A stretch of 64,000 bases of DNA from Theocolax elegans (Eukaryota > Arthropoda > Insecta > Hymenoptera > Cerocephalidae). The DNA lies in the NCBI GenBank assembly GCA_026168455.1, contig CM047431.1, forward strand, positions 2,528,598 through 2,592,597. Reading direction: 5' to 3'. Both the position numbers and the translations under genes were made by a program. Below the pieces are notes generated by a model, which was not told where the DNA came from, did not search any database, and saw only the letters and a program-made list of their open reading frames with translations. Positions 1-50,210 of this stretch are shown here, in pieces (the stretch's first letter is position 1; each line of letters starts with the position of its first letter).

Positions 1-3000
1 TATATTCTAGCCAATGATTATAGGATATTTTAAAAACTTTCTACCTTGAGTTATTTTTATCCATTTTTAAGTATTACAATAACATCTTAAAAACATCTCA
101 TAATCGTTTTGTACATAATTTATTGGAAAGGTTGATTAATTATTTACGCAAATGTTCCAGCAAATGTTTTTAAAAGGTTATATAAATGGTTTTATGCGAG
201 ATTCTTTCTGTCGAAAAAACATTTGTAGAAATGTTATTAAACCGTCATCGAAAATATTGAAAAATATTTTCGTAAACATTTTTAGAAGAATCAAAGATAT
301 ATTCTAGCCAATGATTATAGGATATTTTAAAAACTTTCTACCTTGAGTTATTTTTATCCATTTTTAAGTGTTACAATAACATCTTAAAAACATCTCATAA
401 TCGTTTTGTACATAATTTATTGGAAAGGTTGATTAATTATTTACGCAAATGTTCCAGCAAATGTTTTTAAAAGGTTATATAAATGGTTTTATGCGAGATT
501 CTTTCTGTCGAAAAAACATTTGTAGAAATGTTATTAAAACGTCTACGAAAAATATTGAAAAATATTTTCGTAAACATTTTTAGAAGAATCAAAGATATAT
601 TCTTGCCAGTGATTATATGATATTTTAAAAACTTTTTACCTTGAGTTATTTTTCTCCATTTTTCAGTTTTACAAAAACATCTTAAAAACTTCTCATAATC
701 GTTTTGTACATAATTTATTGGAAAGGTTGATTAATTATTTACGCAAATGTTCCAGCAAATGTTTTTATAAGGTTATATAAATGGTTTTATGCGAGATTCT
801 TTCTATCGAAAAAAAATTTGTAGAAATGGTATTAAAACGTCATCGAAAACTATTGAAAAATATTTTCGTAAACATTTTTAGAAGAATCAAAGATATATTC
901 TAGCCAATGATTATAGGATATTTTAAAAACTTTTTACCTTGAGTTATTTTTCTCCATTTTTCAGTTTTACAAAAATATCTTAAAAACTTCTCATAATCGT
1001 TTTGTACATAATTTATTGGAAGGTTTATTAATCACTTACGCAAATGTTCCTGCAAATGTTTTTAAAAGGTTATATAAATGGTTTTATGCGAGATTCATTC
1101 TATCGAAAAAACATTTGTAGAAATGGTATTAAAACGTAATCGAAAATATTGAAAAATATTTTCGTAAACATTTTTAGAAGAATCAAAGATATATTCTAGC
1201 CAATGATTATAGGATATTTTAAAAACTTTTTACCTTGAGTTATTTTTCTCCATTTTTCAGTTTTACAAAAATATCTTAAAAACTTCTCATAATCGTTTTG
1301 TACATAATTTATTGGAAGGTTTATTAATCACTTACGCAAATGTTCCTGCAAATGTTTTTAAAAGGTTATATAAATATTTCCATGCGAGATTCTTTCTATC
1401 GAAAAAACATTTGTAGAAATGGTATTAAAACGTCATCGAAAATATTGAAAAATATTTTCGTAAACATTTTTAGAAGAATCAAAGATATATTCTAGCCAAT
1501 GATTATAGGATATTTTAAAAACTTTTTACCTTGAGTTATTTTTCTCCATTTTTCAGTTTTACAAAAATATCTTAAAAACTTCTCATAATCGTTTTGTACA
1601 TAATTTATTGGAAGGTTTATTAATCACTTACGCAAATGTTCCTGCAAATGTTTTTAAAAGGTTATATAAATATTTCCATGCGAGATTCTTTCTATCGAAA
1701 AAACATTTGTAGAAATGGTATTAAAACGTCATCGAAAACTATTGAAAAATATTTTCGTAAACATTTTTAGAAGAATCAAAGATATATTCTAGCCAATGAT
1801 TATAGGATATTTTAAAAACTTTTTACCTTGAGTTATTTTTCTCCATTTTTCAGTTTTACAAAAATATCTTAAAAACTTCTCATAATCGTTTTGTACATAA
1901 TTTATTGGAAGGTTTATTAATCACTTACGCAAATGTTCCTGCAAATGTTTTTAAAAGGTTATATAAATGGTTTTATGCGAGATTCATTCTATCGAAAAAA
2001 CATTTGTAGAAATGGTATTAAAACGTCATCGAAAATATTGAAAAATATTTTCGTAAACATTTTTAGAAGAATCAAAGATATATTCTAGCCAATGATTATA
2101 GGATATTTTAAAAACTTTTTACCTTGAGTTATTTTTCTCCATTTTTCAGTTTTACAAAAATATCTTAAAAACTTCTCATAATCGTTTTGTACATAATTTA
2201 TTGGAAGGTTTATTAATCACTTACGCAAATGTTCCTGCAAATGTTTTTAAAAGGTTATATAAATGGTTTTATGCGAGATTCATTCTATCGAAAAAACATT
2301 TGTAGAAATGGTATTAAAACGTAATCGAAAATATTGAAAAATATTTTCGTAAACATTTTTAGAAGAATCAAAGATATATTCTAGCCAATGATTATAGGAT
2401 ATTTTAAAAACTTTTTACCTTGAGTTATTTTTCTCCATTTTTCAGTTTTACAAAAATATCTTAAAAACTTCTCATAATCGTTTTGTACATAACTTATTGG
2501 AAGGTTTATTAATCACTTACGCAAATGTTCCTGCAAACGTTTTTAAAAGGTTATATAAATGTTTCCATGTGAGATTCATTCTATCGAAAAAACATTTGTA
2601 GAAATGGTATTAAAACGTCAATCGAAAAATATTGAAAAAATATTTTCGTAAACATTTTTAGAAGAATCAAAGATATATTCTAGCCAATGATTATAGGATA
2701 TTTTAAAAACTTTTTACCTGAGTTATTTTTATTCCATTTTTAAGTGTTACAATAACATCTTAAAAACATCTCATAATCGTTTTTGTACATAATTTATGGA
2801 AAGGTTGATTAATTATTTACGCAAATGTTCCAGCAAAGGGTTTGTATAAGGTTATATAGGATTTGTACATAACTTATTGGAAGGTTTATTAATCACTTAC
2901 GCAAATGTTCCTGCAAACGTTTTTAAAAGGTTATATAAATGTTTCCATGTGAGATTCATTCTATCGAAAAAACATTTGTAGAAATGGTATTAAAACGTCA

Positions 3001-3830
3001 TCGAAATATTGAAAAATATTTTCGTAAACATTTTTAGAAGAATCAAAGATATATTCTAGCCAATGATTATAGGATATTTAAAAACTTTTTACCTTGAGTT
3101 ATTTTTATCCATTTTTAAGTGTTACAATAACATCTTAAAAACATCTCATAATCGTTTTGTACATAATTTATTGGAAAGGTTGATTAATTATTTACGCAAA
3201 TGTTCCAGCAAATGTTTTTATAAGGTTATATAAATGGTTTTATGCGAGATTCTTTCTATCGAAAAAAAATTTGTAGAAATGGTATTAAAACGTCATCGAA
3301 AACTATTGAAAAATATTTTCGTAAACATTTTTAGAAGAATCAAAGATATATTCTAGCCAATGATTATAGGATATTTTAAAAACTTTTTACCTTGAGTTAT
3401 TTTTCTCCATTTTTCAGTTTTACAAAAACATCTTAAAAACATCTCATAATCGTTTTGTACATAATTTATTGGAAAGGTTGATTAATTATTTACGCAAATG
3501 TTCCTGCAAATGTTTTTAAAAGGTTATATAAATGGTTTTATGCGAGATTCATTCTATCGAAAAAACATATGTAGAAATGGTATTAAAACGTCATCGAAAA
3601 CTATTGAAAAATATTTTCGTAAACATTTTTAGAAGAATCAAAGATATATTCTAGCCAATGATTATAGGATATTTTAAAAACTTTTTACCTTGAGTTATTT
3701 TTCTCCATTTTTAAGTGTTACAAAAACATCTTAAAACATCTCATAATCGTTTTGTACATATTTTATTGGAAAGGTTTATTAATCATTTACGCAAATGTTC
3801 CTGCAAATGTTTTTAAAAGTTTATATTCAT
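1..3830. repeat. Satellite array, ~297-bp monomer, 13 units
   Basis: Head-to-tail copies begin at 1, 298, 596, 894, 1190, 1486, 1783, 2079, 2375, 2674, 3050, 3347 and 3645, giving a period of 296-299 bp except for one 376-bp unit. That unit (2674-3049) carries a duplicated piece, with a junction near 2845-2865. Units differ by point changes and 1-2 base indels and fall into two subtypes at one site, 'gattaattatttacgc' and 'tattaatcacttacgc'. The subtypes lie in blocks: units 1-3 and 11-12 are the first type and 4-9 the second. Each unit is about 75% A+T and holds recurrent AAACATTTTT-like words. The array starts at the window edge, so its full size is unknown. No coding potential is seen. Confidence 0.97.
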
Positions 3831-8303: not shown

Positions 8304-9055
8304 ATGAAGGGGGAATCATCGTATTTAATTGACGATTTGCTGCACTGTCGCTCGATACTCTAAGTACTTTGAGCTGACGTGTGGGTAGCTTCTGGAGAAT
8401 CAGCTTTCTAAAAAATTTACTAGGTACATATGTACGCCTTTCTCTCTATTTCTATAAATCATATTCAAATGCATTGGGAAAGAGAGAGAAAAACAGAATT
8501 ATATGTGCGCGCGATCTATATTAGAAAAATAATAATATATAGTCGGGATAAAGGAGTGGGATGTGCAAACGATTGTTATCAAGGTGCAATCGATTGCAAT
8601 CAAGGTGCAAACGATTTGAATAAAGTGCAAATCATTTACTTAAGGTAGGTGAGGTTGCGCGGGGCAGTCTGTGTATTTATCATGTGTAATTCATGTGCGG
8701 TAAATTTAGATGGTTAATATATTCTATGAAGGGGGAATCATCGTCTATAATCGACGATGTGCTGCGCAGTTGCTACGGTACTAAGTACTGTGAGCTGACG
8801 AATGGTTAGTTCCCGGAGAATCAGCTGTCCCAAAACCTTACCATAAGCATATGTATGTCCTTGTTTCTCTTTTATCTCTAAATAAAGTTGAACGCATCAC
8901 AAAAGAGATACAAAGACTGAATTACATGTGCACGCAATTTCCAATTGAAAAAACAATATACACAGCAGATTTAGGAGACATTAAATTTGAATGATGAGGG
9001 AATTATTGTATCAAATTACGATGTGCTGCAATGTCGCTGCGATACATTCGTGTAG
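8304..9055 (+). repeat. Tandem diverged units with conserved hairpins (candidate ncRNA)
   Basis: Three diverged head-to-tail copies start at 8304, 8726 and 8994, the third cut off by the next repeat. Aligned positions conserve the sequence ATGAAGGGGGAATCATCGT. They also conserve several self-complementary pairs: CGATGA/TCATCG or ATGA/TCAT around the G-run, ATCGT(C)/(G)ACGAT just after it, and AGCTGA/TCAGCT enclosing GGAGAA some 65 bp further on. The intervening sequence has changed more than the stems. Unit 1 also carries four 20-21-bp direct repeats (8563-8644, consensus GTGCAAACGATT..TCAAG) that unit 2 lacks. No long open frame spans the units. A structured non-coding RNA is one reading; a decayed tandem duplication of unknown origin is the other. 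Confidence 0.5.
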
Positions 9056-9119
9056 ATTTGCAGCAGATGATCTGCGTCGCCAGCAAGATGTTTTGCGGCT
9101 ATATATATAAAAACATACG

Positions 9120-9192
9120 AAAGGCGTCTAAGGTAAGATCTCTAGTTTCTTACTCAGGAGTCCAAGCTGGAGATCGAGGACGAAACGCCTTT
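9120..9192 (+). ncRNA. Type III hammerhead ribozyme-like core, copy A (mutated core)
   Basis: Stem III pairs 9120-9127 with 9185-9192 (8 bp). The cleavage-site triplet GTC is 9126-9128. Stem I is TAAGG (9129-9133) with TCTTA (9148-9152). The core reads CTCAGGA at 9153-9159, where CTGANGA is expected. Stem II is GTCC/GGAC (9160-9163 with 9178-9181), and GAAA follows at 9182-9185. Everything fits a type III hammerhead except G5, which is C here. G5 is known to be essential for hammerhead catalysis, so this copy should be inactive although its fold is intact. Confidence 0.72.
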
Positions 9193-9509
9193 AATTATTT
9201 TAAAAGGCCGTGCTCTGGGAAATTCCACCAACCACAGTGGACAAAGAGTACAATAGGCTTGCTTTATTCTAAAGTAAAGCATTTAGTTCGGAGAGACCGA
9301 TATTATATATACATATACATATTACCGAACGATAAAATTTTGTATCAAATAACTCGCGACACGGTCTAACACGTCGCACTCTGGCTGGTGGCTTTTCCCA
9401 CGACCAGAGGGAGACGACTATCTCTCTACACTCGTTGGAGAGATCGTCGTCTCTTTTCTATATATATAGCCGCAGAACATCTTGCTGGCGTCGCAGATCA
9501 TCTTGTGAC

Positions 9510-9578
9510 AGGCGTCTAAAGTAAGATCTCCAGTTCCTTACTAAGGATTCCAAGCTGGAGATCGAGGACGAAACGCCT
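9510..9578 (+). ncRNA. Type III hammerhead-like core, copy B (degenerate)
   Basis: Same layout as the copy 388 bp upstream: stem III 9510-9515 with 9573-9578 (6 bp), GTC at 9514-9516, core CTAAGGA at 9541-9547, GAAA at 9570-9573. G5 is A, stem I has a mismatch (TAAAG/CCTTA) and stem II has one mismatch (TTCC/GGAC). It is presumably inactive. Independent lesions in copies A and B imply a common ancestor carrying the canonical core. Confidence 0.65.
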
Positions 9579-9792
9579 TTAATTATTTTAAAAGGCCGTG
9601 CTTTGGGAAATTCCACCAACCATAGTGGACAAAGAGTACGATAGGCTTGCTTTATTGTAAAGTAAAGCATTTAGTTCGGAGAGACCAATATTATTATATA
9701 CATATGCATATTACCGAACGATAAAATTTTGTATCAAATAACTCGCGACACGGTCTAACACGTCGCACTCTGGCTGATGGCTTTTCCCACCA

Positions 9793-10877
9793 CCAGAGGG
9801 ATCACATAAATTGTTTATTCATTATTACTAAAAATATTATTCTTTCTTTAAAAAATCAATACTTCAGATCCTCCCTTATATTTTAAGCTATCCATACGAA
9901 TTTTTTCAGACTTTTAGTTTAATATTTTGGATATAATGTTTTAATTAAAAGGTGCATATCCCTGTAATTTGGATCCGATACCCCCTTAATTTCTGGTAAA
10001 AATGAGAAATGCGAAGGACGGGTAGGGAAATGGGGGGCGGAACTTCGGCCTCCTTTTAATCTTGTAATATTAGTAAAATAAAATCCCTTGATTTTTCGTT
10101 TTCTTCTAATTCGTTATATAACTTTCATGTAAATACTCACACTTTTTCCATTTTCAGACTTATACCATTCTGTGAAATCGGCATGACTAGATTCGGGAAA
10201 ATCAATTGCCTCATATTCGTTATCGCTTTTTCGTTTAAATTTTTTTTCTTCTTTTCTTTTTCTTTCCGATCATTCGGGGAAAATTTATTTTTACGTTTTA
10301 ATTTTTTCTTTTTGGAAACATCACATTGATTTTCTTTTGCGCTTTTTGAACCTATAGAAGAAATTGATAATAAAAATAAATTGTTTAGTAAGTGATAAAA
10401 GTATTAAGTTCTAAATATTAAGTAATTAAATTAGATAAGAAATTTGCTATTTTTATAAAAATCTATAACATCTTTTTACAATATTTTAGTTCACATATAT
10501 TTTTTCTTTCAATGGTACTTTATTGGTAATTTAAATAAGAATTACTTTTCATAATAGTACATTTCGATAGAAGTGCGAAAGTATTGATTTTCTTACGAGT
10601 GCGGGTAATACTCGCTCGAGATGATATGTAGATTGTTTGATACTGCTCATAAATGGCATTTAAAGAATATGAAAAATGCGTGAAGTGCCATTTCACGCAC
10701 ATTCTATCAAAAAACATATACATTGCTCAATCAAAATATAAGGAATAGAAAATTATATCGTAAATAATCGTTTTGTAACGCGCGTACTATATAGTTTCAT
10801 TGATAAAACTATATAACAAAATTAATCTAGTTTTATGTAGTTAATAAAATATTACTTACGTCGACTGTAGTATAACG
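9793..10877. other. AT-rich interval with one possible exon remnant
   Basis: Mostly low-complexity AT sequence. The only organised part is the minus-strand exon-like segment listed at 10114-10351. The open frame at 10520-10723 (-) has no recognisable features and is likely chance. Confidence 0.5.
10114..10351 (-). pseudogene. Possible exon remnant, Lys/Glu-rich, unknown
   Basis: Read on the minus strand, a splice-acceptor-like CTTCTATAG ends at 10352. It is followed by an open stretch rich in Lys and Glu, then after an A-run by a more complex segment (SDNEYEAIDFPESSHADF, then TEWYKSENGKSV) ending in a stop at 10114-10116. The two halves are in different frames, so an indel in the A-run would be needed to join them. 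The acidic/aromatic second half looks more like real coding sequence than the surrounding DNA, but I recognise no family. It could be a terminal exon of a decayed host or transposon gene, or chance. Confidence 0.25.
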
Positions 10878-15506: not shown

Positions 15507-16265
15507 GGCGTTGAGCAGAACTTTCAGCAGCGCTTAATGGCGGAAACGCAAGCACGCAAGCAGGGTAGAGAAGAGCCTGCTCGTGATTACATTTTCTGCT
15601 TGCTAACCATATTTAGCAGAATGGATGCGCCTCCAAGTACGCAGTTTCAGCTAATCATGTTGTATGCTAACATGTTGCCGTCTGTTCGGAAGTTAGTTCC
15701 GAAAGAAAAAGTTACAAGCGTCGATAGGCTTGTGCAGCTAGCTCGTCAGGCGGAAGAGCTTATCAAGGAAGAGCGGAATTTTCCCGCGCCTCCGCCGCCA
15801 GAAAAGAGCGTTCTGCCTTCTGTGGCTTATAAGCAGCCAGATGCCAGAGGTAAGAAGGGCGGCAAAGCTGCTAGCGATGATGCTACGGTAAAAGTAGCGA
15901 GTATCGCAGAACCTACAATGGAAAATTTGGCCAAACTCTTAGAGAAGATGCTAGATGAAAGATGTAGCAAATATGCGAATTCTTTTGCGAATTCCGCCAA
16001 TAAGAAAGGCCAAAACGCGCGTAATTCTAGTAAACCAGGTGTGCCGAAAGGAGCAAAGAATGTCTCTGGTAAGCCGTCCGGCGTGACTATTATAGAAGTC
16101 AAGGATGACCAATCATCTAAGGCTCATACGAAATCCGCGTGTAGTCGCAACCGCGATAAGAAAGCAGGTCCCAAAGAGCGTGTGTACTGCTATCGCTGCG
16201 GTTGGCCCGGGTATATCAAGACGGATTGTCCTGAGTGCTCGGGAAACGAGAAAAGGGGCGAATAG
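15507..16265 (+). CDS. gag: gag C-terminal part with zinc knuckle
   Basis: Open frame continuing Gag after the stop at 15504-15506, with the first ATG at 15537. It contains a helical capsid-like part, a Lys-rich linker and one zinc knuckle close to the C-terminus (CYRCGWPGYIKTDC). The knuckle has the C-X2-C-X4-H-X4-C spacing but Tyr where His should be, so metal binding is probably impaired. The frame ends at 16263-16265 and overlaps the start of the pol frame by 31 bp, with pol in the -1 frame. Confidence 0.85.
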   Translation, partial: GVEQNFQQRLMAETQARKQGREEPARDYIFCLLTIFSRMDAPPSTQFQLIMLYANMLPSVRKLVPKEKVTSVDRLVQLARQAEELIKEERNFPAPPPPEKSVLPSVAYKQPDARGKKGGKAASDDATVKVASIAEPTMENLAKLLEKMLDERCSKYANSFANSANKKGQNARNSSKPGVPKGAKNVSGKPSGVTIIEVKDDQSSKAHTKSACSRNRDKKAGPKERVYCYRCGWPGYIKTDCPECSGNEKRGE

Positions 16266-18736
16266 ATAAGGTCCCTATCGCCCCAATTATTAGTGCGACC
16301 TCTGATGTGGATGAAATTCCATCAGTAATTGCGCAAACGGAGAAAATGCCCTCGCTTTTGCCTGTCGGAATTGACAGACAATCAGCGGAAAAAGGTGTTT
16401 GCGATTCTCGCGCTGGAACGCCAGTTGAGGAAGGAACTCTACAGTCTATTCGCTGGTGGCTGCAGATCGGAATCGGTGGATTCCGCGTACGCGCTTTGTA
16501 CGATTCAGGGGCGGCTCGCACGGTTATTAATTCCTTAGGCTTGCAAATAGCATCAGCCATAGGAAAATCGTTAACTCCTTACATTGGACCAGGTGCACGA
16601 CTCGCTAACGGCCAACGCGCTCCAATACTTGGACGTTTAGAGCTGCCGTTTGATTTAGCGAATGAACGCCATTACTTAGATGTTTTAGTACTGAGCGATC
16701 TCGACGCCGATTGTATACTCGGTGCCGATTTTATTCGTGCGTTTAACGCTGTTTTGTTGCCGCGTGAAAATCAGTTGCTGATTGAAAATGTGGTTGACGC
16801 AATTCAGCTTGAAGTATCTGCTATCGGCATTGGTGAGGCCTGCTCACTTACTGCTGTTGGCTTAGCAGATATTGACGAAGCGCAACGCAAACAACTCAAT
16901 GAGTTGTTAGAAAAGCGTTTGACTGCTCCGAATGCAAAGCTAGGTTGCACTAACTTAGCTGAGCATGAAATTGATGTGGGAGGTTTGCGTCCCATCAAAC
17001 AGCGCTATTATCCGGTATCTCAGAAGATCGAGCAAGAGATGCACGCTCAAGTGCAAGAGATGCTTGACGCGGGGATAATTCGCCCGTCGACGAGCGAGTG
17101 GTCGAGTCCAGTAGTCATGGTGCGTAAATCTAATGGATCCTACAGGTTTTGCATCGACTACCGAAAGCTTAATTCCGTCTCGAAGACCTGCGCTTATCCG
17201 CTTCCCTATATGGAGATTATTTTGCGTAAACTCCAAAGGGCACGCTACATAAGCACGCTGGATTTAAGCAGCGCATACCATCAGATTCTGATGAAAAAGG
17301 GATCGGAACATGTGACGGCTTTCACGGTGCCTGGCTTAGGCTTATATGAGTTTACTCGGATGCCGTACGGTGTGGCGGGGGGGCCCGCTACGTTTCAACA
17401 GCTGATAGATATGGTGATAGGTCCTGATCTTGAACCGTACGCGTTTTCGTATCTCGATGACGTCATTATAGTCACCGAGACGTTCGAAGAGCATCTCAAA
17501 TGGCTTGAGCATGTCATAAAGCGGATTTCCGCCGCGGGACTTACGATAAACCGTGGGAAAAGCGAATTTTGCCGCAACGAGGTTAAGTATCTTGGCGTGT
17601 TGGTGAATCGCGATGGATTTCGCCCTGATCCGGACAAGATAGCGCCGATCGTGGATTATCCTGCGCCAACTAACCTCAAAAAGCTACGCTCTTTCTTCGG
17701 CATGGCTCCGTGGTATAGAAAGTTTCTAGAGGATTTTGCTACGCTTGCGGAACCGCTTACCAAGTTAACCAAGAAAAATGTTAAATTTGAGTGGGGCGAG
17801 GAACAACAGTTTGCTTTTGAACAAATCAAAGCGTTGATAGCATCTGCGCCTATCCTCCATCGGCCATCTTTCGAGCATCAGTTCGTGATCCAGACTGACG
17901 CTAGCGACACTGGCTTAGGAGCGGTTTTAACGCAAATTATCGACGGAGAAGAGAGAGTACTTAGTTTCGCCAGTCGTACGTTAAACGCGGCGGAACGGAA
18001 CTACTCGGTTACCGAACGAGAGTGCTTGGCTGTATTATGGGCCGTGGAAAAATTCCGCTCATATGTAGAGGGCTATCGCTTTAAGGTTACAACTGACCAC
18101 AGCAGTTTGAAATGGCTGTGCAACTTACGTAACCCTACTGGACGCTTAGCGCGTTTGGCACTTAAGCTCCAAAGCTATGATTACGAGATCGAGCACCGCA
18201 AAGGATCTCTTGATGCCCTCTCTCGTGCATTCGAAGACGACTCGGATTGCGACATCGCTGTCGTTAGTTTGCCGTACAATACACAAGATGAGTGGTATAC
18301 GCAAAAACTTGCAAATGTCAGCGGAAATCCGGAAAAATACCAAGACTGGAAGGTGTTTGGAGGCAGACAGTATCATTATAAGCCTGACCCTTCCATAGAT
18401 GACTATTTTGAAGACGAAGATGCTTGGAAACTAGCGATACCGCAGGATAAACGCCAACAAATTCTCTGCAAGAATCATGATGAGCCAACTGCTGGACATC
18501 TTGGCCGAAACAAGACATATCAGCGGATAGCGCGATACTATTATTGGCTTTTACGATGCTTAAAGATATCGCCGAATTTGTGCGGAATTGCTCGATTTGC
18601 CAGCAATGTAAAGTGCCAGAGCATGCTCCTGCAGGTTTCATGGGAAAACGTGTTATTTCGCATCCATGGGAAATTGTTGCAGGTGATATCATGGGACCGT
18701 TTCCGCGTTCTTCGCATAGATTTGAATATCTTTTAA
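16235..18736 (+). CDS. pol: pol: protease, reverse transcriptase, RNase H, integrase zinc domain
   Basis: 833-residue frame of a Ty3/gypsy polyprotein. In order: aspartic protease with LYDSGAA (residues ~88-94); reverse transcriptase with RFCIDYRKLNSV (~303), STLDLSSAYHQI and the catalytic YLDDV (~407); RNase H with TDASDTGLGAVL (~552), the TEREC segment and TTDHSSLKWL; then the start of the integrase HHCC zinc domain (GHLGRNKTYQRIARYYYW). Catalytic residues of protease, RT and RNase H look intact. The frame shifts at about 18555, inside the zinc domain, after which the last ~60 residues are out of frame. It follows gag in the -1 frame. Family assignment is firm; the clade within Ty3/gypsy was not determined. 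Confidence 0.95.
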   Translation: MLGKREKGRIDKVPIAPIISATSDVDEIPSVIAQTEKMPSLLPVGIDRQSAEKGVCDSRAGTPVEEGTLQSIRWWLQIGIGGFRVRALYDSGAARTVINSLGLQIASAIGKSLTPYIGPGARLANGQRAPILGRLELPFDLANERHYLDVLVLSDLDADCILGADFIRAFNAVLLPRENQLLIENVVDAIQLEVSAIGIGEACSLTAVGLADIDEAQRKQLNELLEKRLTAPNAKLGCTNLAEHEIDVGGLRPIKQRYYPVSQKIEQEMHAQVQEMLDAGIIRPSTSEWSSPVVMVRKSNGSYRFCIDYRKLNSVSKTCAYPLPYMEIILRKLQRARYISTLDLSSAYHQILMKKGSEHVTAFTVPGLGLYEFTRMPYGVAGGPATFQQLIDMVIGPDLEPYAFSYLDDVIIVTETFEEHLKWLEHVIKRISAAGLTINRGKSEFCRNEVKYLGVLVNRDGFRPDPDKIAPIVDYPAPTNLKKLRSFFGMAPWYRKFLEDFATLAEPLTKLTKKNVKFEWGEEQQFAFEQIKALIASAPILHRPSFEHQFVIQTDASDTGLGAVLTQIIDGEERVLSFASRTLNAAERNYSVTERECLAVLWAVEKFRSYVEGYRFKVTTDHSSLKWLCNLRNPTGRLARLALKLQSYDYEIEHRKGSLDALSRAFEDDSDCDIAVVSLPYNTQDEWYTQKLANVSGNPEKYQDWKVFGGRQYHYKPDPSIDDYFEDEDAWKLAIPQDKRQQILCKNHDEPTAGHLGRNKTYQRIARYYYWLLRCLKISPNLCGIARFASNVKCQSMLLQVSWENVLFRIHGKLLQVISWDRFRVLRIDLNIF
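16241..16247 (+). promoter_or_regulatory. -1 frameshift slippery site G GGA AAC
   Basis: GGGAAAC lies in the gag/pol overlap. In the gag frame it is read as (tc)G GGA AAC, exactly the X XXY YYZ arrangement of -1 programmed frameshift sites. Slipping back one base enters the pol frame (REKGRIDK...). The overlap is 31 bp and gag terminates 16 bp after the heptamer. A downstream pseudoknot or stem-loop was not worked out. Confidence 0.75.
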
Positions 18737-27989: not shown

Positions 27990-29495
27990 TTATGTTATGC
28001 CCTCATTACACATTCTATTTTCCCAGGCAGTTTGGTCGAGTCCAAACAGGTGATTAAATAATGAACTTTTGAAATGACTGATAGATGAAAATGGTGGAAG
28101 TTCATTTATGATTTTAGATGCAGTAATGATAAATGATTTATTGAATGCCTCGGTACGAGGGGGAAGATAATTTAGCGATTTTGATGGATGACGAGAGAAG
28201 ATGCGGGGGTTATGTTGGAGAGTATTAATTTGATACAATGATTTGCCAGATAAATGGGAGAGTTATGAGCGATGATGCCGTATGCAAGTGAGTCAATGAG
28301 GTATGAGCGTCTGGACTCGACTGACAACCACCTGAGACTTAACCTATATGGAGTTACATGCTCCCTCCTTGCTATGTCCCCCCACACAAATCGGACACAA
28401 GCATTCAGTAGCCCTTGAAGCTACAAATTTTTGGTTTGATCGACGTCATTATATACCGCACACGCATAGTCGAAATGCGGAAAAACTAGTGCTTCAACCA
28501 GACTCTTCCTAAGACCTCGTGACAAAGTCTTCTTATAGTAGCGCAATGAGTGTAAAACCCCATGTACGCGATTCGAGATAGATAGCACCTGTTTTGTCCA
28601 ATCGAGAGAGGGAGAGATCATGACCCTAAACGATTTAACCTCACATTCATAATTCAAGAGATTCGCTCCCAATCCAACCTTCGGGGCAGTGTTCAAGTCG
28701 ATACGCGATAAAAAAGCCTGACTACCCAGAATCATAACATTCGTTTTTTTACATTTAGCTTCAGGCTGTTCGTGTGATACGTTGCACCCCTAATTCAAAT
28801 TCTGACGGAAAAAACGAATGATAGACCTGTGCATCATCGGCAAACAGCATACAATCGCTGTGTAAAAGAACTTTCGGCAGATCGTTAATATAAATAGAAA
28901 AAAGTATTGGGCCAAGAACACTGCCCTGAGGCACTCCCGCATTTATCTCGAGCCAGTCCGATAACACGCCCGTCTCACACTCTACTGCATGCATGCGGCC
29001 TACAAGATACCGATAAAACCAATTTAATACGTTATCAGAGCAACCAATTTCACACAATTTTTGCATAATTTTGTCATCAGGCACTGTATCAAATGCCTTG
29101 GAGAAGTCGAACAGGACGAGAATCGTGATCTTTCTGGCATCAATGGCTCTCCTAACATCATCTAAAACACCCAGGAGTGCTGTCTGGGTACTACGTCCCT
29201 TACAAAACCCTGCCTGTCTATCAACAAGAATATGATTCTTCTCAAGGTATTCTGACAACTGATTGTGTATAAGTGTCTCTAAAATTTTCGAAAGCTCACA
29301 AAGCTTCGCAATCGGCCTTGTATCTGAACATGATTCTACCCTGGTCGACTTCGCCAATGGAAACAGTAGTACCTTTTTCCAGCTCTCTGGAAAATAGTCA
29401 GCTGAGAGCATGTTATTAAAAAGATCAACAAGGTGCAGTGTTAATTGAGACTCCATTAACTTTATCATTTCTACAGATATGCCATCAATCCCCAC
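27990..29495 (-). pseudogene. LINE ORF2 reverse transcriptase and C-terminus
   Basis: The frame at 28761-29495 runs from GIDGISVEMIKLM through SDTRPIAKLCELSKILE (RT block 2), GFCKGRSTQTALLG, VLFDFSKAFDTV (catalytic Asp), GVPQGSVLGPILFSIYIND and MLFADDAQVY (FADD catalytic box). The thumb region and a connector follow in other frames (28421-28735, 28172-28387), and the conserved C-terminal tail ends at 27990. The catalytic residues are intact, but at least three frame breaks separate the blocks, so no functional ORF2 can be made here. Confidence 0.9.
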
Positions 29496-30071
29496 TGTTC
29501 TTGAGGAAGATGAGGGTGATGTAGGACAAGAATTGCATGATATAGTTGAAAATGTTTGTATGGAAAGTGGTTGAACATGATTTGAGACTGAAGCATAGTG
29601 ACAATTTTACTGTTGAGACGTGAACAATTTAAGCGGTGATGGATATGTCTTTGAACTAAGGCCCATGTTTTTTAGGCATTTCCAGGATTTCTTTGGATCT
29701 TTCGTGCTACTAAGTTTTTTTGCCAGGAAGTGAAACTTACTTGAGTTGACAGCATTTGAGACATGATTTTGAAGACCCTTGTATACGTTATAATCATCAA
29801 CTGAACCTGTAGCTCGAAATCTACTAAAAGCTGCGTTTCTGTCTTTAATGCTTTCTTTGATTTACCGAGAAATCCATAGTTTGTGATTTATCTTAATGGA
29901 GTAAAATGTCATAGAAGCTAGCATGTCAAATGTAGATAAAATTGTATTACATATAATGGTAATGTAGATAAAATAGTGCTGTGATTGGTATTAGATGAAT
30001 GAACCTGATGTGAATGCGGACTAGATTGATAATTACATGGAGACATATCCATAGATACAGATTGATCAGGC

Positions 30072-33194: not shown

Positions 33195-34336
33195 TATTTT
33201 ACACTAGAGAAAACTCTTTCTGAACTTGCTGAGTTTGCTGGTATTGCAAGATATTTTTTAGCTAGCCGTCCAATGATAGGATACCTCTTTTCTTGCTCTT
33301 TCCACCAACATTTGCATCAAAATTATGGTTTATTTGGGGCTCTGCAATATAGTTTTCAAACTCGTTCTGCATATCAATGATATTATTACTACCAAGTAGA
33401 ATATCCATTACTGTTGGCGCTTCTGGTGTATTTGTAATTGATACTTCGTTTTTGAAAGTACAATAGAATTCTTTTACCGCCGTGATAATACTTATTCTTA
33501 TTTCTACCGCATTTTCAAACTGTAAATTCTTATATCGAGGATCCAAAGAAGCTGCAATATGGTATGGATTTACAATACATAATTCTCGAAAATCATAAAC
33601 TTCAAAACGTTGACATAAATCAGATGTAATTGCTGTTTTGCAGTCTTTTATAAATTTAGAATTACTATAGTTGATGATGAGGTGTTTACTTAATATACTA
33701 TTCACGATAGGTAGTACTAATGAAATTGTAATTTTAGATTCTGAACATAAAACCGTAGTTGCACTTTCCAAAGGCTTTAGCAAATTAACAATGGCGTTTA
33801 ATTTAAACCACTCATCCTCAAATATTTCCAATTTTTGAGCTATGCGACTATGAAAATATTATGATCTGCAAGTACTGCTACCAATGATGGTCTTAATTTC
33901 AATAATCGCTCAATCATATAAAATGTTGAATTCCATCTTGTCGGGCAACTTTGTATTAAAGACAGTGCGGGTTTTCCCATTTGTTGCAAATGTTTTTTAA
34001 GTGCATGACTTCTTTTTATTGAGTGATTAAATGCACTTACTAAAGATGATACCTTTTTTAGAATTTTATCACACTCGGGCAACTCTATTCCTCTTTTAAT
34101 ACTTAATTGCAATGTATGTGCAGCGCAAGATACATAACTAATTTGATAATTTCTTACGGCATTCGAAATATTTCTAGCATTGTCATGCACCACAGCAGAT
34201 ACTTTACCAGTTATATTCCACTCTTCTATCGAATCCAGAATAAAATTTTCTAAGTTTTCTACTGTGTGGTTCATACTGAATTCTTCTATTTTCAAATTGA
34301 ATGATTGTAAATCCCAATTACAATTTAAGTAATGCC
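33195..34336 (-). pseudogene. hAT transposase, exon 2
   Basis: Begins at 34336 after the acceptor TTTGTAG, reading GHYLNCNWDLQSFNLK. It continues through AVVHDNARNISNAVR (second catalytic Asp), YVSCAAHTLQLSIKRG, SCPTRWNSTFYMIERLL, a helical insertion domain and LDPRYKNL. After a frame break near 33275 comes KKYLAIPANSASSERVFSS, the hAT C-terminal dimerisation motif with the catalytic Glu. A second frame break lies at about 33835. It belongs with BED-finger hAT transposases; the DNA-binding N-terminus is not in this exon. DDE residues are conserved but the protein is broken. Confidence 0.88.
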
Positions 34337-34422
34337 CTACAAATAAATCGTTGTTTAGTAGGAATTTGTCGATCTGACGGAGGCGAAGGAAAAGAAAAAA
34401 AACACAAAAAGTTTTTCTTCCA

Positions 34423-34463
34423 AGCGACGTTTCGTTGGCTTGGTCTGCCAACCTCTTCAGGCT
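34423..34463 (-). ncRNA. Hammerhead ribozyme in left Penelope terminal repeat
   Basis: The minus-strand mirror of the copy at 35567-35607. The core CTGAAGA is the complement of 34454-34460, followed by a GTTGGC/GCCAAC stem II, GAAA and CGTC. All conserved core bases are present. Stem III is the minimal ACGT, as in other Penelope hammerheads. Confidence 0.85.
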
Positions 34464-34668
34464 ATTTTTTATTGATAACACACAAATAACAAATTAACAG
34501 AACGCACAAACAATATTGAAAAACTTAGATATAAAAAAATACCTTTTTTTATAATCGGATAACCGATTCGTCAAGCGGTTAGATAAACAGTCAACATAAG
34601 CAAAACTCGGTGTATTTATATATATATCGCTAAAGGTAGTGTAACGTAAACATTGTACAACTGTCAAA

Positions 34669-35376
34669 TCAGGCATTTAAATTTCTGAGAACTGGGAAAT
34701 AAGAGCTATTTAAAAATCTAATATCGTCTTTCTTATTAATATTATTAACATCAAGTTTAATGTGTAACATTTCCGAAATAAGACGCTTTTTATAATTGAT
34801 CTCCCTATCGACAATTTTTACACCATCCCAATCAAATTCATGTTTATTTAAAAACATATGTTGATTAATAACTGAATCAGTATTGTTATTCTTTTTGTGT
34901 TCATTAATCCTCGTTTTTAGTAAACGTTTAGTTTCACCAACGTAAGATGCAGGACAGTCTTTACAATTTAATTTATAAACAACATTCATCTGTTCAAACT
35001 TTTTTGTACCATCTTTACCCAGTTTAATAATAGAATTCAAACTTTTTTGAACTAATGGTAGAGTTTGAATATTAACAGACCTTAATATGCGAGATAATTT
35101 ATCAAAATTCTGAGAAAAAGGTAATGGTAAATAGGCAAGACGTTTAATTCTGGAAGTAGAATGAATATTTTTTTTAAATTTTAACTTATTTAGACGGAAG
35201 TGAATATTTTGTTTAATAAATTTGATATTGTAGTCATTGTCGATAAGTAGATTTTTTACAATATTTAAATTAGTTGTATGATATCGTACATCTGATAATA
35301 AAAAAGCTCTGTCTACTAAATTATAAATAACATTCTTTTTTTGTTGAGTTGGATGATTTGAAAAATAATTAATCAA
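34669..35376 (-). pseudogene. Penelope RT C-terminus plus GIY-YIG endonuclease
   Basis: 235-residue frame. The N-terminal part (NYFSNHPTQQKKNVIYNLVD, then RAFLLSD) is the thumb region of Penelope RT. A basic linker follows, then the GIY-YIG module: VVYKLNCKDCPASYVGETK (~residues 129-147, with the CX2C characteristic of Penelope enzymes), LLKTRINEHKK with the catalytic Arg, a His (INQHMFLNKHEFDW), and the Glu in RLISEMLHIK. The endonuclease nicks target DNA to prime reverse transcription. The domain itself appears uninterrupted, but the RT palm is absent, so this is a truncated gene. Confidence 0.88.
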
Positions 35377-35566
35377 TCGACCAGAAGCTATGTATTATAA
35401 CAAATTGGTACCAAAAACCCATAGTTTTGCTTATGTTGACTGTTTATCTAACCGCTTGACGAATCGGTTATCCGATTATAAAAAAAGGTATTTTTTTATA
35501 TCTAAGTTTTTCAATATTGTTTGTGCGTTCTGTTAATTTGTTATTTGTGTGTTATCAATAAAAAAT

Positions 35567-35607
35567 AGCCTGAAGAGGTTGGCAGACCAAGCCAACGAAA
35601 CGTCGCT
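35567..35607 (+). ncRNA. Hammerhead ribozyme in right Penelope terminal repeat
   Basis: Stem I AGC (35567-35569) pairs with GCT (35605-35607). Core CTGAAGA 35570-35576, extra G 35577, stem II GTTGGC/GCCAAC (35578-35583 with 35591-35596) with a 7-nt loop, GAAA 35597-35600, CGTC 35601-35604 with cleavage expected after C35604. The very short stem III matches Penelope-type hammerheads. Confidence 0.88.
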
Positions 35608-35760
35608 TGGAAGAAAAACTTTTTGTGTTTTTTTTCTTTTCCTTCGCCTCCGTCAGATCGACAAATTCCTACTAATTACCATGGAGAGCGCTCATCATAT
35701 TTATGAAATCGTTGTTTAATTTATTATTATTATTATTTTTATTAATATTATTATTATTAT

Positions 35761-41545: not shown

Positions 41546-42481
41546 ATGTTTTTTAAACGGAGAATTGAGGCTTGAGCTAAATTTCATTTTACACGGACTA
41601 GGAATTATTTACCTAGCAATATTTTTTGCCAATATACTTGCAAAAATAATTAATATATTTCCAATATGTAGCGATATATCTTTATGGTAAACGTATTTAT
41701 ATTTGTATTTTTAGCAGCTTACAGGGGATTAGATGGATACTGAAACAAGTGGAGATACTTTTCTACCATTCCAAGGTAAGTGCATAAATTTTTTTGCAAT
41801 GATCATGCTACTAGATTCATCGTTATAAGGCAACAAATATACATTTCTATTAATATTTCGGGCACTTTTCCCGGATATTTTGATCATAAGTGATCTTAAT
41901 GATTTAGACCCACTCTGGAAATATTTAGGCAGTTTCTGACTATAAAAAGACATCTTTTAGACAGTATTAGGTTACCAGAGTCCGGAGCAAAATTGCTGAT
42001 TTTCACTATTTAAGGTTTAAATGGCTTACAAGAGTGTGACAGCATACATTTATGTCTTTAAAAGTATTTTTAATGAAAAGTTCGGAAAATTTTACAAAAA
42101 AAGTCATACTTATGGTTTTAGTGAAAAATGCATCCCCTGGGAGCTAAAAATTCATGAAAATGGGCATATAATGCAAAAAAGTGCTAAAATGTCAACTTTG
42201 ACTCTCTGTAACTTAAAATAATGGCCCAGAAAAATCTGAAAAAATTCAGGAGAACTACTGGATACCTCTAAAACATATTCCCACAGTTATAGCAATATTT
42301 ATTTTTTTCATCTTCGATGTCACAGAGAACCACCCATATGTATGTTACCTATGTTTCTGGATCACCCTGTATATAATTATCGGTCTTTCCGAACTAAATG
42401 CTTTATTTTTGGAATGAAGTCGTCCTCCTCTATATATATAGTCGCATAACATCTTGCTGGCGTCGCAGTTCATCTTGCGAC

Positions 42482-42550
42482 AGGACTCTAAGGTATGATC
42501 TCCAGTTCCTTACTGAGGAGTCCAAACTGGGGATCGAGGACGAAACGCCT
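42482..42550 (+). ncRNA. Type III hammerhead-like core, copy C
   Basis: Stem I TAAGG/CCTTA (42489-42493 with 42508-42512), intact core CTGAGGA (42513-42519), stem II GTCC/GGAC (42520-42523 with 42538-42541), GAAA (42542-42545). Stem III is damaged: GGACT opposite ACGCC gives two central mismatches, where the 9-kb copies have GGCGT. Catalytic core bases are complete, but folding is probably compromised. Confidence 0.65.
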
Positions 42551-43259
42551 TTAATTTTTGTTTTAATTTTTTTTCAATGATCATGCTACTAGATTCATCG
42601 TTATAAGGCAACAAATATACATTTCTATTAAATTTCGGGCACTTTTCCCGGATATTTTGATCATAAGTGATCTTAATGATTTAGACCCACTCTGGAAATA
42701 TTTAGGCAGTTTCTGACTATAAAAAGACATCTTTTAGACAGTATTAGGTTACCAGAGTCCGGAGCAAAATTGCTGATTTTCACTATTTAAGGTTTAAATG
42801 GCTTACAAGAGTGTGACAGCATACATTTATGTCTTTAAAAGTATTTTTAATGAAAAGTTCGGAAAATTTTACAAAAAAAGTCATACTTATGGTTTTAGTG
42901 AAAAATGCATCCCCTGGGAGCTAAAAATTCATGAAAATGGGCATATAATGCAAAAAAGTGCTAAAATGTCAACTTTGACTCTCTGTAACTTAAAATAATG
43001 GCCCAGAAAAAATCTGAAAAAATTCAGGAGAACTACTGGATACCTCTAAAACATATTCCCACAGTTATAGCAATATTTATTTTTTTCATCTTCGATGTCA
43101 CAGAGAACCACCCATATGTATGTTACCTATGTTTCTGGATCACCCTGTATATAATTATCGGTCTTTCCGAACTAAATGCTTTATTTTTGGAATGAAGTCG
43201 TCCTCCTCTATATATATAGTCGCATAACATCTTGCTGGCGTCGCAGTTCATCTTGCGAC

Positions 43260-43328
43260 AGGACTCTAAGGTATGATCTCCAGTTCCTTACTGAGGAGTC
43301 CAAACTGGGGATCGAGGACGAAACGCCT
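43260..43328 (+). ncRNA. Type III hammerhead-like core, copy D
   Basis: Duplicate of copy C within the second 777-bp unit: core CTGAGGA at 43291-43297, GAAA at 43320-43323, and the same two stem III mismatches. The 3' side continues through the repeat to CACCGAACG at about 43490. Confidence 0.65.
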
Positions 43329-43351
43329 TTAATTTTTGTTTTAATTTTTGA

Positions 43352-44033
43352 AAAAGGCCGTTACCCTGAGAAATTCTACCAACCATAGTGGACAAAGGGT
43401 ATAATGGGCCTGCTTTATTCCAAAAATAAAGCATTTAGTTCGGAAAGACCGATAATTATATATATATTTAAATATATTATCACCGAACGTTTAAATTCAT
43501 TTTGTTTTAAATTTTTAGGTCTAGGTTTTATGTTTCATTTTATGATTGTTTTACATGCAGTAGTAGTATATACTTTAACAAAAGATTTGCTTCATACAAA
43601 TGTCATAAGTAGTGATTGGCGTAATAATTAGTAAATTAGTGATTGGCCAGTAGAACAATTCACTAGCAGTTTATAATGTTGATCATAAAAGTAACCAAAA
43701 AAATATTTTTTGAAAAAAACAAATCAAAGAAATTCTTGGCATTTGATTATACTTAATTTAATAATAGCAGATCCGCTAAATTGATAATATATTATGTTTT
43801 ACAAAAAGTGGCCAATCACTGTAGAATGGTCTACAACTATATGGCTTACCCCTACTCTGCGTATTATTGATATAGACAACATAAGAATGCTGTGCAATCT
43901 TTATGTGCTTTTTAATAAGGTATCATGTTCGTATTTTTGTAGCACACTAAAAAAATAATTCACGCAAGTTAATTATTATTTATAATGTATTAAATTATAT
44001 TCAATTTATACATAAAAACTCATTTAAGGAGGT
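43352..44033. other. End of hammerhead repeat, then AT-rich sequence
   Basis: 43352-43490 completes the dispersed hammerhead repeat (GGCCGTTACCCTGAG ... AGCATTTAGTTCGGAAAG ... ACCGAACG). 43490-44033 is AT-rich with no recognised gene. The open frame 43404-43631 spans the repeat boundary and is spurious. Confidence 0.6.
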
Positions 44034-46406: not shown

Positions 46407-47228
46407 TTAATTAGTAAGCATAATTTCTTGTAAATATTTAGCGATAATAGGTAAGTAAAATGTAAACATTCCGATTAATACAATTTTTAAACTGTGTTTG
46501 TTATAAACATCGTCGTCGATATATTTTTCATTGATGATCCCTTCCATATCGGCATTGTATACTGAACAATACTGCTTAAATGCGTTGGCTTCTTTTAATA
46601 TATTTTTAATTTCTTCAATGTCTTCCTTCTGTAGTTTCTCTTTCAAATATTCCGTCACGTGGTGTACAGTTTGATTGACATTATCCACTTGATTTTCGAG
46701 AATGTCTAGATGTAGATCTATTAGACTGCTTTGATTGTAAAGACCCGTGAACGTTGATTCTTGCATGGCTATGCCAGGAATCGCCATTTTTCTTTTTCTG
46801 CACGTTTGATCATTTGTTTCGGTATCCTCTCCTTGGTTAACGTTGTGACACATACCTGGCCGGTCATCAATCATAATAGATTTACATCCGTACGTTAACG
46901 TGAAGCTTATTTCGTGGTTTTCGAGAAAGATTTTAGTCGGACGTCCAAAATCCTGATAAAAAGAGTAGCTATTTTTGAAATAAGCTAAAATGACTTCGAA
47001 TTGACTCTTGAAATCGTTCCATTCAGCTTTATTCAGTGTAACACTTTTGTGCGAAGGTCCACTGCTTATGAGTTTTACGACGTGCCGATAATTTCCATCA
47101 ACGTAGTCAAGGCCGATACAAGCCCTCTTGGTATTGGAATTGTTGAGAGCGTACGTCGTCGACAACAGTATGTTTGGCAAATGAGCGTGCGAATCAAACT
47201 TTCCGCGTGACACGGAATAATTAGCCAT
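46407..47228 (-). CDS. Polinton-associated protein, uncharacterised, C-terminal membrane segment
   Basis: 273 residues, uninterrupted, starting MANYSVSRGKFDSHAHLPN. There is a mixed alpha/beta-looking first half (IGLDYVDGNYRHVVKLISSG, then EWNDFKSQFEVILAYFK). A basic RKRK motif lies near the middle, followed by a long helical segment (DLHLDILENQVDNVNQTVHH) that could be a coiled coil. Near the C-terminus is a hydrophobic stretch IVLIGMFTFYLPIIAKYL that could span a membrane. It is the only long intact frame of the Polinton. I recall related ORFs in insect Mavericks but know no function. Confidence 0.7.
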   Translation of the reverse strand: MANYSVSRGKFDSHAHLPNILLSTTYALNNSNTKRACIGLDYVDGNYRHVVKLISSGPSHKSVTLNKAEWNDFKSQFEVILAYFKNSYSFYQDFGRPTKIFLENHEISFTLTYGCKSIMIDDRPGMCHNVNQGEDTETNDQTCRKRKMAIPGIAMQESTFTGLYNQSSLIDLHLDILENQVDNVNQTVHHVTEYLKEKLQKEDIEEIKNILKEANAFKQYCSVYNADMEGIINEKYIDDDVYNKHSLKIVLIGMFTFYLPIIAKYLQEIMLTN

Positions 47229-47649
47229 TTTTCACTTTTGAAACAACTATTTTAACTCACTACGAGAGGTTGATACGATCTCTTCAGATTTTTTACTGTT
47301 AATGGTGCGTCGTTGAGCACTATCCTTTTATATATACATGGAGTCATAAATACGTTATACGTGGTATACCAGGTGAAAATATTCGAAGAAAAGAAATGCA
47401 CCAGGTGTTACTTGCTCTTAAGGAGCACCTTTATTTAAGAAAAAATATGAAAAGGGAAAACTGTTAGTTCAAGGAAAACGACGTCTAATTTGATACATTA
47501 AATTTTATTTGGTGCAAATTACAAATATAATTTTTTAAAAGTACAACATTGATTATTGATGCTTAATCCTAGAGAGCGCTCGCTGGCAAATGTTTCTGCC
47601 TTGTTACATTTTTTATTCTTAATTTTATTGTTAATACTTTAATAAAATT

Positions 47650-48045
47650 TCACAACTGCCAAGTCGTTTTTTTTGGTATCGAGCGAAATAAATTACAAAA
47701 AGAATTGAGATCAAGACCGTTACACATGTGATAAAGAAACGTTATAGTGTACTGTCCGCAACACGTAGAATCATCACTTTGCAGTTTTTTTGTGTTCCAT
47801 TGAATATTTTTACAATTTCCTTGCAGGCGTTCAATATGATGCTTTGATATCGGTGGAAATCCATAACTGTCAAAATACGTTCCAAATCTATCTTTGTGTA
47901 TGTAAATAGCTATCCAATGCGAACCAGGTTTCGTGTGATCGTCGATGTTGCATACGATAGCGGTCGGCGTCGTCATAGCGCGTGGAATTCTGTCCGCAGC
48001 GTATACCCCTACCGTATTTGCCTCTAGGCCTTCTAAAACTCTCAT
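47650..48045 (-). CDS. PRO: Adenain-like cysteine protease of Polinton
   Basis: 131 residues. The catalytic triad layout of adenovirus-type/Ulp1-like proteases is visible: His in GSHWIAIYI, Asp in GTYFDSYGFPP, and Cys in DDSTCCGQYTITFLYHMC. In Polintons this enzyme is thought to mature capsid proteins. The frame is open from MRVLEGLEANTVGVYAADRI, whose first residues could be preceded by a lost N-terminus. The neighbours are capsid and the unnamed proteins on the same strand. Confidence 0.88.
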   Translation of the reverse strand: MRVLEGLEANTVGVYAADRIPRAMTTPTAIVCNIDDHTKPGSHWIAIYIHKDRFGTYFDSYGFPPISKHHIERLQGNCKNIQWNTKKLQSDDSTCCGQYTITFLYHMCNGLDLNSFCNLFRSIPKKTTWQL

Positions 48046-48069
48046 TATTTGCCTAGTATTAATAACAAT

Positions 48070-48718
48070 TTATTTGCTGCTCTCCTCTTCCTCGTCCGTT
48101 ACGTAGTCTAAGTCGTCTGTTTCGTCCGTTCCTTCAAATTCCGTTTTGAAATTTATGAGATTGTTTTCCTTCCTTCTCTTCCACAAAATATTTTGTAAAG
48201 CGTTGTCGAAAATTTCAGTGCTGTTCTTTGGTAATTCTAGACGTATCTTTTCAGGTAGTAGTGAGTGAAGCCATGCCTTCACCATGTATGATCTCTGTAG
48301 AGCGCAAAATGTACTTTTATATCGATTTTCCATAAATTTGTGCGTAGTGCACAATTGTTGGCAATCGAATCGTTTCTGCAATTCCGTAAAGCTTTCACAG
48401 CTATACTCCTCTATGTTAACGACGACCCGAGTCATGATGGATTGAATGAATGGAACTTTTTCGAGACCTTTGACGTATACTCTAGAAGCGCTTCTCGCAA
48501 TATTGTACAAATGTCGACGTAATTTGCGCAATGAAGCTGGGATGATACGTAATCGTTGGACGCCTTGATTTCATTTGGTAATTTATCAAACTCGTGGGGT
48601 GATGAAATCAATGACCGAAAACGTCACCCTGTAGTGAAATTATTGAAACTTCTTTGGAAACGAATTCGCGATTTTTGTCTCTGAGACCTTGAATATCTAT
48701 AACGTAATCCATTGTACG
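48070..48718 (-). pseudogene. Polinton-associated MDYV-type protein, uncharacterised
   Basis: Starts at ATG 48718 (MDYVIDIQGLRDKNREFVSK) in the same frame as the end of the capsid gene. After a stop and frameshift at about 48530-48605 it continues as 48070-48531 with RVYVKGLEKVPFIQ, VVNIEEYSCESFTELQKRF and CTTHKFMENRYKSTFCAL. It then has a charged tail ending in DEEEESSK. From memory, this resembles a recurrent insect protein family beginning MDYV.D.QGF, with a predicted nuclease-like fold, often next to Mavericks. Function unproven. Confidence 0.6.
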
Positions 48719-50135: not shown

Positions 50136-50210
50136 TTTTCTACGATTATTTTGGTCCAAAAATGTCTGTTCTACTTCTGACTGGTTTTCTTTTTCGATAT
50201 CTGCGTTTTC

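Follow-up and report, generated by a model that had tools for sequence, protein, structure and literature searches.

Hammerhead motifs and mobile elements in the window

The window, a stretch of 64,000 nucleotides from contig CM047431.1 of Theocolax elegans (C7:2528598-2592597 in the coordinates used here), contains four hammerhead-like motifs, A to D (Table 1). All of them are present where a preceding sequence-only reading of this DNA had located them. They belong to a repeat family termed F1. A and B are located in a 388-bp direct repeat with 94-97% identity, in agreement with the spacing proposed for them. C and D, which had been read as a tandem pair, are not a tandem RNA template; both are contained in a 785-bp tandem duplication with the halves 41787-42571 and 42565-43349. 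The duplication took in host DNA along with the element, which is why C and D do not differ; the four copies represent three distinct sequences.

Neither an intact hammerhead nor a complete core combined with all three stems is found among the four copies (0/4 in both cases). The lesion named for each of them was confirmed, G5>C in A, G5>A in B and two stem III mismatches in C and D, but B carries further lesions, its stem I being broken after 3 bp. An 8-bp stem III attributed to copy A was dropped because the extra pairs come from the junction with the inverted piece 9065-9113, just upstream; the repeat's own stem III measures 6 bp. The inverted piece copies the segment that immediately precedes the hammerhead, and in copies other than A the sequence at this place is ACAGGCGTC.

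A strict descriptor was applied that tolerated no more than 1 core mismatch and required at least 4 bp in stem I, 4 in stem II and 5 in stem III; it matched only copy A in the real window and gave 1 match in 30 first-order Markov windows. Copy B is missed by this one-mismatch descriptor. Taken alone, the descriptor is only moderately improbable by chance. Rfam hammerhead models yielded no match in the window, neither at the gathering threshold nor at E<=10, a caution that the model overlooks degraded copies whose loops are long.

Table 1. Hammerhead repeats and related elements in the window, and genomic loci of the second family
Feature	Position	Strand	Remarks
F1 insertion 1: inverted segment, unit A, partial unit B	9065..9801	+	Outer ends at unit positions 375 and 284
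Inverted unit piece, left arm of head-to-head insertion 1	9065..9113	-	94% complementary to 9455-9503
Hammerhead copy A, type III	9122..9190	+	G5>C; predicted cut after 9128
One 388-nt unit, predicted cut site to predicted cut site	9129..9516	+	Direct repeat; circular fold
Hairpin and AT-rich stretch with both outer-end sites, about 9316 and 9348	9286..9348	+	Unit positions ~188 and ~220; predicted fold
Hammerhead copy B	9510..9578	+	G5>A, mismatch at pair 10.1-11.1, stem I broken; predicted cut after 9516
Penelope-like remnant, head-to-head, GIY-YIG C-terminal frame 34669-35394	34355..35708	-	Pfam GIY-YIG, E 6.1e-5
Tandem duplication of 785 bp: host DNA and left part of F1 insertion 2	41787..43349		99.6% identical
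Hammerhead copy C, identical to D	42482..42550	+	Core intact, two stem III mismatches
F1 insertion 2: inverted segment 43148-43197, hammerhead D, unit to second end site	43146..43497	+	Outer ends at unit positions 185 and 211
Hammerhead copy D	43260..43328	+	Core intact, two stem III mismatches
F2 loci	L034-L043 and L064-L066		Found with RF00008

Several other elements surround these repeats. A tandem array of units of about 296-298 bp occupies positions 1-3826, and partial direct repeats about 421 bp apart are located at 8304-8872, to the left of the insertion with A and B. The plus strand at 16235-18736 encodes a retroelement polyprotein frame with reverse transcriptase, RNase H and integrase zinc-binding domains. 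The left neighbour frame of the Penelope-like remnant (33262-34493) has no Pfam match; by eye, a motif in it resembles that of a hAT transposase. On the minus strand at 46407-52394, several frames resemble, on inspection, a Polinton/adintovirus-type element (DNA polymerase B, protease); the six of them that were scanned or listed have no Pfam match where tested.

Intact hammerheads of family F1 in the host genome

In the host genome (658 Mb, 1277 contigs), the F1 unit has at least 287 matches, among those listed mostly with 91-96% identity. The copies are scattered across the genome, and the description as a dispersed repeat was correct. One intact 69-nt type III F1 hammerhead is present in 567 exact copies (271 and 296 on the two strands), and the reversed pattern used as control in 0. 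This 69-mer comprises GUC, a 5-bp stem I, CUGAGGA, a 4-bp stem II, GAAA and a 6-bp stem III. Since the motif is repeated, its loops are complementary to each other (see below) and 567 exact intact copies contrast with 0 for the reversed pattern, chance is excluded.

Complete core and all three stems were found in 121 of the 137 F1 copies from 20 fetched stretches and the window. This means that the intact parent forecast from the damaged window copies exists, and genomic copies with complete core and stem III are not lacking. The type III architecture (stems I and II closed by loops, stem III open) also holds. The core features CUGANGA and GAAA, A15.1-U16.1 and a cleavage site of the form NUH are present in the same 121 copies and not in the four window copies. 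Against the Rfam model RF00008, intact F1 copies reached at best 36.5 bits (E 6.9e-5), below the gathering score of 48.5. The F1 unit measures 388-390 nt (about 388 nt), has a GC content of 0.43 and is non-coding, its longest ATG frame comprising 38-42 aa.

Viral, bacterial and archaeal collections, which contain no insects, were searched too. In viral contigs, an 18-mer has 3 chance matches without hammerhead context, and longer F1 and F2 pieces have 0; an F1 piece has 0 matches in bacterial and archaeal genomes.

A second family, F2

The RF00008 search of the genome gave 14 matches. The 10 that were inspected all belong to a second family, F2, whose best score is 42.9 bits against the gathering score of 48.5; the Rfam hammerhead model is without the long loops of F1 and F2. 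One intact F2 hammerhead form occurs in 329 exact copies (reversed pattern: 0), and its sequence is unrelated to that of F1. As drawn, stem I comprises 6 bp, stem II 3-4 bp and stem III 5 bp, and the core is complete in the listed copies. The F2 unit is about 512 nt long, has a GC content of 0.37 and is non-coding (longest ATG frame 93 aa). From their sequence and stems, F1 and F2 classify as type III hammerheads with predicted self-cleavage. Across the genome, the type I model RF00163 found a single match (G000:C7:60521257-60521309), which with 32.4 bits is below the cut-off of 34.

Insertion anatomy

In 15 of the 20 F1 stretches, the units form head-to-head arms; the remaining 5 have a single orientation. 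Among 100 listed of the 567 intact copies, neighbours on opposite strands at a distance of at most 1200 bp are head-to-head in 15 cases and tail-to-tail in 0. F2 insertions are likewise head-to-head. The outer ends of the arms, corresponding to RNA 3' ends, are not scattered: 33 of 38 F1 ends are located at unit positions 180-198 or 208-228 (about 188 and about 220, i.e. about 32 nt apart), in bins that were drawn after seeing the data, and 12 of 19 F1 insertions have one outer end at each site. This end table leaves out L051b, a partial duplicate with its left end at 60, and the single-orientation stretches L046, L049, L050, L055 and L063. F2 ends are found at 289-294 and 327-333 (about 291 and about 328, about 37 nt apart), and 4 of the 5 insertions whose two ends are visible have one at each site; in L036, both ends (289/291) are at one site. 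The ribozyme cut is more than 10 nt away from every one of the 38 F1 ends, and no poly(A) tail was seen at the insertion ends inspected. The outer-end sites are probably start sites of reverse transcription.

Inner junctions of F1 are variable. At C6:31789535-31790601 (L053, the same locus as L029), the F1 arms meet inside the hammerhead and form a near-perfect palindrome.

In 13 of 23 F1 insertions, compared to 1 of 500 mispaired flanks, the array as a whole is bordered on both sides by a common word of at least 10 nt; the other 10 have no such word, and among the 13 positives, that of L052 is a TA repeat. In F2, shared flank words of 11-13 nt were found in 4 of 4 insertions tested (L035, L039, L040 and L065, which have both ends inside the fetched piece). 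The true target-site duplications will be somewhat shorter, since the shared words may include element bases. The AT content of the flanks is 0.766 versus 0.667 farther out.

The two end sites were placed on the window unit from 19 F1 insertions (Table 1). The outer ends of window insertion 1 are off these usual sites. At neither window insertion was a target-site duplication found, i.e. there is no shared word of at least 10 nt at insertion 1 or 2. Because of these missing duplications, a retrozyme reading would be unsafe from the window alone; it rests on the genome.

The units within an insertion usually resemble each other more than units elsewhere. Among 88 full F1 units, 68 of them distinct, pairs from the same arm differ on average by 4.2 changes (371 pairs) and pairs from opposite arms by 3.6 (median 2; 91 pairs), compared to 11.4 for pairs from different loci (3366 pairs). 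L061 is an exception, with 8.8 differences between the arms versus 6.4 within an arm. Of the 68 distinct units, 2 recur at other loci. One monomer copied repeatedly in both directions would be the simplest source of such insertions, and a circle made by the hammerhead would supply it.

RNA folding and loop-loop complementarity

Complementarity between loops I and II extends over 9-12 nt in the two families. The longest Watson-Crick run comprises 9 nt in F1, reached by 21 of 100000 shuffles, and 12 nt in F2, reached by 0 of 100000. The minimum free energy (MFE) structure predicted for either hammerhead is a long hairpin in which stem III encloses the loop-loop helix (-28.3 kcal/mol for F1, -32.9 kcal/mol for F2). 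The hammerhead helices without the loop-loop helix, at -12.9 (F1) and -10.0 (F2) kcal/mol, are far above it. Stem III is common to both folds, and stems I and II are excluded by the hairpin unless a pseudoknot forms. The alifold consensus also gives the long hairpin.

Folded as a circle, F1 unit A has an MFE of -126.9 kcal/mol compared to -87.2 +/- 5.4 for 100 shuffles (z -7.4) and a z of -5.0 for the minus strand. For F2, the circular fold yields z -4.2 on the plus and -1.4 on the minus strand, and for copy D, z -5.1 and -2.8, respectively; copy B shows no strand asymmetry (-4.2 on plus versus -4.3 on minus). To assess covariation, A, B and D were aligned with adjustment by hand. The plus strand of this alignment folds at -56.6, compared to -29.3 +/- 4.2 for column shuffles. 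Among 14 varying pairs on this strand, 10 are kept by one-sided and 1 by two-sided changes, and 3 are broken, two of which correspond to D's lesions in stem III; on the minus strand, 8 of 10 varying pairs are broken and 2 kept. With three sequences only, this pair conservation is support rather than proof.

Relation to Penelope elements

The sequence-only reading had also noted Penelope hammerheads in the window. This holds in so far as a Penelope remnant is present (Table 1) and its genomic relatives carry the minimal Penelope core. Aligned with a genomic Penelope locus (L067), the outer ends of the window remnant fall at 612 and 645, i.e. 33 nt apart, and a 13-nt word is shared by both flanks (1 of 1 tested). 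Open Penelope frames in the genome reach 897 aa. The window Penelope protein has 66 relatives; the 10 with a named organism are from the hymenopteran genera Leptopilina, Trachymyrmex and Ooceraea. Folding predictions for the Penelope locus, F1 and F2 place the first end site in a hairpin loop and the second beyond the 3' strand of the hairpin.

The behaviour of a Penelope protein has been studied in vitro. This protein cleaves and extends both target strands and prefers AT-rich DNA (Frangieh et al. 2024; PMC11167929). It begins reverse transcription at two neighbouring internal positions of the RNA, and the distance between them corresponds to the 30-40-bp tail (PMC11167929). The available part of Arkhipova et al. 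(2013; PMC3846280) describes Penelope copies with inverted pLTR, mostly head-to-head, a 31-bp tail at one inverted end and duplications of 8-10 bp. F1 and F2 insertions bear these Penelope marks: head-to-head arms, ends spaced by 30-40 nt, short duplications and an AT-rich target. As far as the accessible Penelope literature goes, the likeness comprises head-to-head copies, a tail of about 31-40 bp between the start sites, 8-10-bp duplications, AT-rich targets and a hammerhead. In contrast to the non-coding F1 and F2 with their full type III hammerheads, Penelope elements encode reverse transcriptase and GIY-YIG domains and have a minimal hammerhead.

Shared sequence of retrozymes and Penelope RNA was considered and dropped. 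Local alignments of F1 and F2 with two Penelope loci are at noise level (53, 38, 24 and 148 of 200 shuffles as good). The best alignment of F1 with F2 puts their two end sites in register, a score that 11 of 100 shuffles reach. The word AGAYCRA near the first site is kept in 5 of 6 Penelope loci inspected, and F1 and F2 each contain a match to it at the corresponding position; tested against random places, this is not significant (33 of 150). A common mobiliser is thus suggested by the anatomy, since sequence similarity near the end sites is not significant. The sequence-only reading had noted neither the head-to-head arms, the two fixed ends and the target-site duplications nor the Penelope link and the second family.

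Proposed cycle and alternatives

F1 and F2 are probably non-autonomous type III retrozymes copied by Penelope machinery, with circular RNA as the probable template. The putative cycle, with self-cleavage, RNA circles, use of a Penelope protein and twin priming, would run as follows. Tandem units would be transcribed, and the hammerhead would cut the RNA to units of about 388 nt (F1) or about 512 nt (F2), which would be ligated into circles. A Penelope-like protein would then bind the unit hairpin and make staggered cuts in both strands of an AT-rich target. Reverse transcription would be primed from both DNA ends at the two internal sites about 32-37 nt apart. Each cDNA would circle the small template, often for several turns, and the joining of the two cDNA ends would leave head-to-head multi-unit arms within a target-site duplication. 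The least certain part concerns the loops: the loop I-loop II helix may be part of the active hammerhead fold and, after circle closure, might rearrange to the long hairpin and silence the ribozyme.

A more specific version, which we consider evenly balanced between right and wrong, depicts F1 and F2 as circular-RNA parasites of Penelope that imitate its start hairpin. Rolling-circle reverse transcription from both ends of the break would create the paired head-to-head concatemers in a single step, and the ribozyme would act as a switch: the loop-loop helix would aid cleavage of the nascent RNA, and the same 9-12 bp would later protect the closed circle.

Alternatively, the same elements could use the Penelope machinery with an uncut multimeric linear RNA as template, the hammerhead serving another step or none. 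The published assay argues for this: hammerhead mutants had no effect on insertion, unprocessed RNA was the dominant substrate of the Penelope protein in vitro, and no reads were found to end at the hammerhead cut (PMC11167929). Homogeneous daughters would also be expected from a homogeneous parent array. However, intact ribozymes have been retained in two families, and unit variants differ between insertions but usually number one per insertion, both arms included, an outcome that a circle gives directly. An uncut template therefore appears rather unlikely.

It is improbable that a LINE moves the copies by ordinary twin priming, with no role for Penelope. A LINE-like reverse transcriptase frame (RVT_1) is present in the window at 28761-29606 on the minus strand, and LINE twin priming also generates 5' inversions with target-site duplications, as the available part of PMC2837659 states. 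Against this, two fixed internal sites 32-37 nt apart with one end each are the Penelope signature, common to the window Penelope, and no poly(A) tail is seen at the ends inspected.

One could also regard the long hairpin of stem III and loop-loop helix as the conserved structure and the hammerhead core as incidental, given that the hairpin is the predicted MFE structure by 15-23 kcal/mol. The hairpin needs neither GUC, CUGANGA and GAAA nor stems I and II; yet, two families with unrelated sequences have kept them all, so this view is very improbable. Spread as a satellite by DNA processes (unequal crossing-over, DNA circles), with the hammerhead as a relic, would fit the tandem arrays of near-identical units and the later duplications at some loci (C/D, L056) but is hardly credible, as duplications enclose whole arrays, the end sites are fixed, individual insertions are scattered, and most of the copies sampled have an intact ribozyme.

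Relation to known retrozymes and hammerheads

The reading of F1 and F2 as Penelope-copied retrozymes has its closest precedent in the non-LTR retrozymes of metazoans (Cervera and de la Pena 2020; PMC7229834). According to the available part of that paper, these have type I hammerheads, and Penelope elements were proposed as their mobiliser. F1 and F2 share with them small non-coding tandem units (170-400 nt there), a GC content below 50%, one hammerhead per unit, duplications of more than 4 bp and the presence of Penelope elements (same excerpt). They differ from the type I elements described there by their type III hammerheads with loop-loop complementarity over 9-12 nt. Neither head-to-head arms nor two end sites are mentioned in the accessible text of PMC7229834, where the word 'inverted' occurs 0 times. 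Being type III rather than type I, F1 and F2 are a variant and not a member of metazoan non-LTR retrozymes as defined.

Self-cutting RNA of type III is ordinarily linked to plants. With plant LTR retrozymes, F1 and F2 have the type III hammerhead and a proposed circular RNA intermediate in common, as far as the available sections of PMC7229834 and PMC11722881 describe these. The LTRs, primer-binding site (PBS), polypurine tract (PPT), 4-bp duplications and spans of 600-1000 nt reported in the same sections do not fit units of 388 and 512 nt. The plant class was rejected: with units of this size in a tandem layout, there is no LTR-internal-LTR plan, and the shared words exceed 4 bp.

Termites, flies and Drosophila pseudoobscura have yielded type III hammerheads that form loop-loop pseudoknots, and type III hammerheads with loop-loop pairing are also known from HDV-like RNAs; none is reported from hymenopterans in the portion of PMC7936874 at hand. 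The sequence-only reading had called the repeat unrecognised; this is true for F1 itself, but not for type III hammerheads with such pseudoknots, which the same portion already reports. F1 and F2 resemble these motifs in being type III, of animal origin and paired between loops I and II. In the excerpted text of PMC7936874, the pairing is a short GCCR/YGGC contact made by an internal loop within a long helix I, and the motifs are isolated; in F1 and F2, it joins two terminal loops over 9-12 nt within a mobile repeat. The Dolichopoda repeat pDo500 is likewise an insect repeat with one hammerhead per unit. It is a satellite of about 500 bp with its own 49/68-bp motif, compared here by description only, as given in the available part of PMC2837043.

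In the open-access PMC literature searched, no report was found of animal type III retrozymes or of an insertion signature like that of F1 and F2 for any retrozyme. One review mentions type III hammerhead elements in insects as work in preparation (PMC7761336).

Conclusions

Perreault et al. (2011) asked whether the spread of hammerhead repeats might require the type I form (PMC3088659, available part). Two type III families with hundreds of intact copies each would answer that type I is not required, if they cleave. Because their insertion anatomy is that of Penelope, the question of the mobiliser is directly testable with the published in vitro assay. The two families are an unusually clear lead on the insertion route of such elements, and the finding suggests who copies such RNA parasites in animals: the Penelope machinery.
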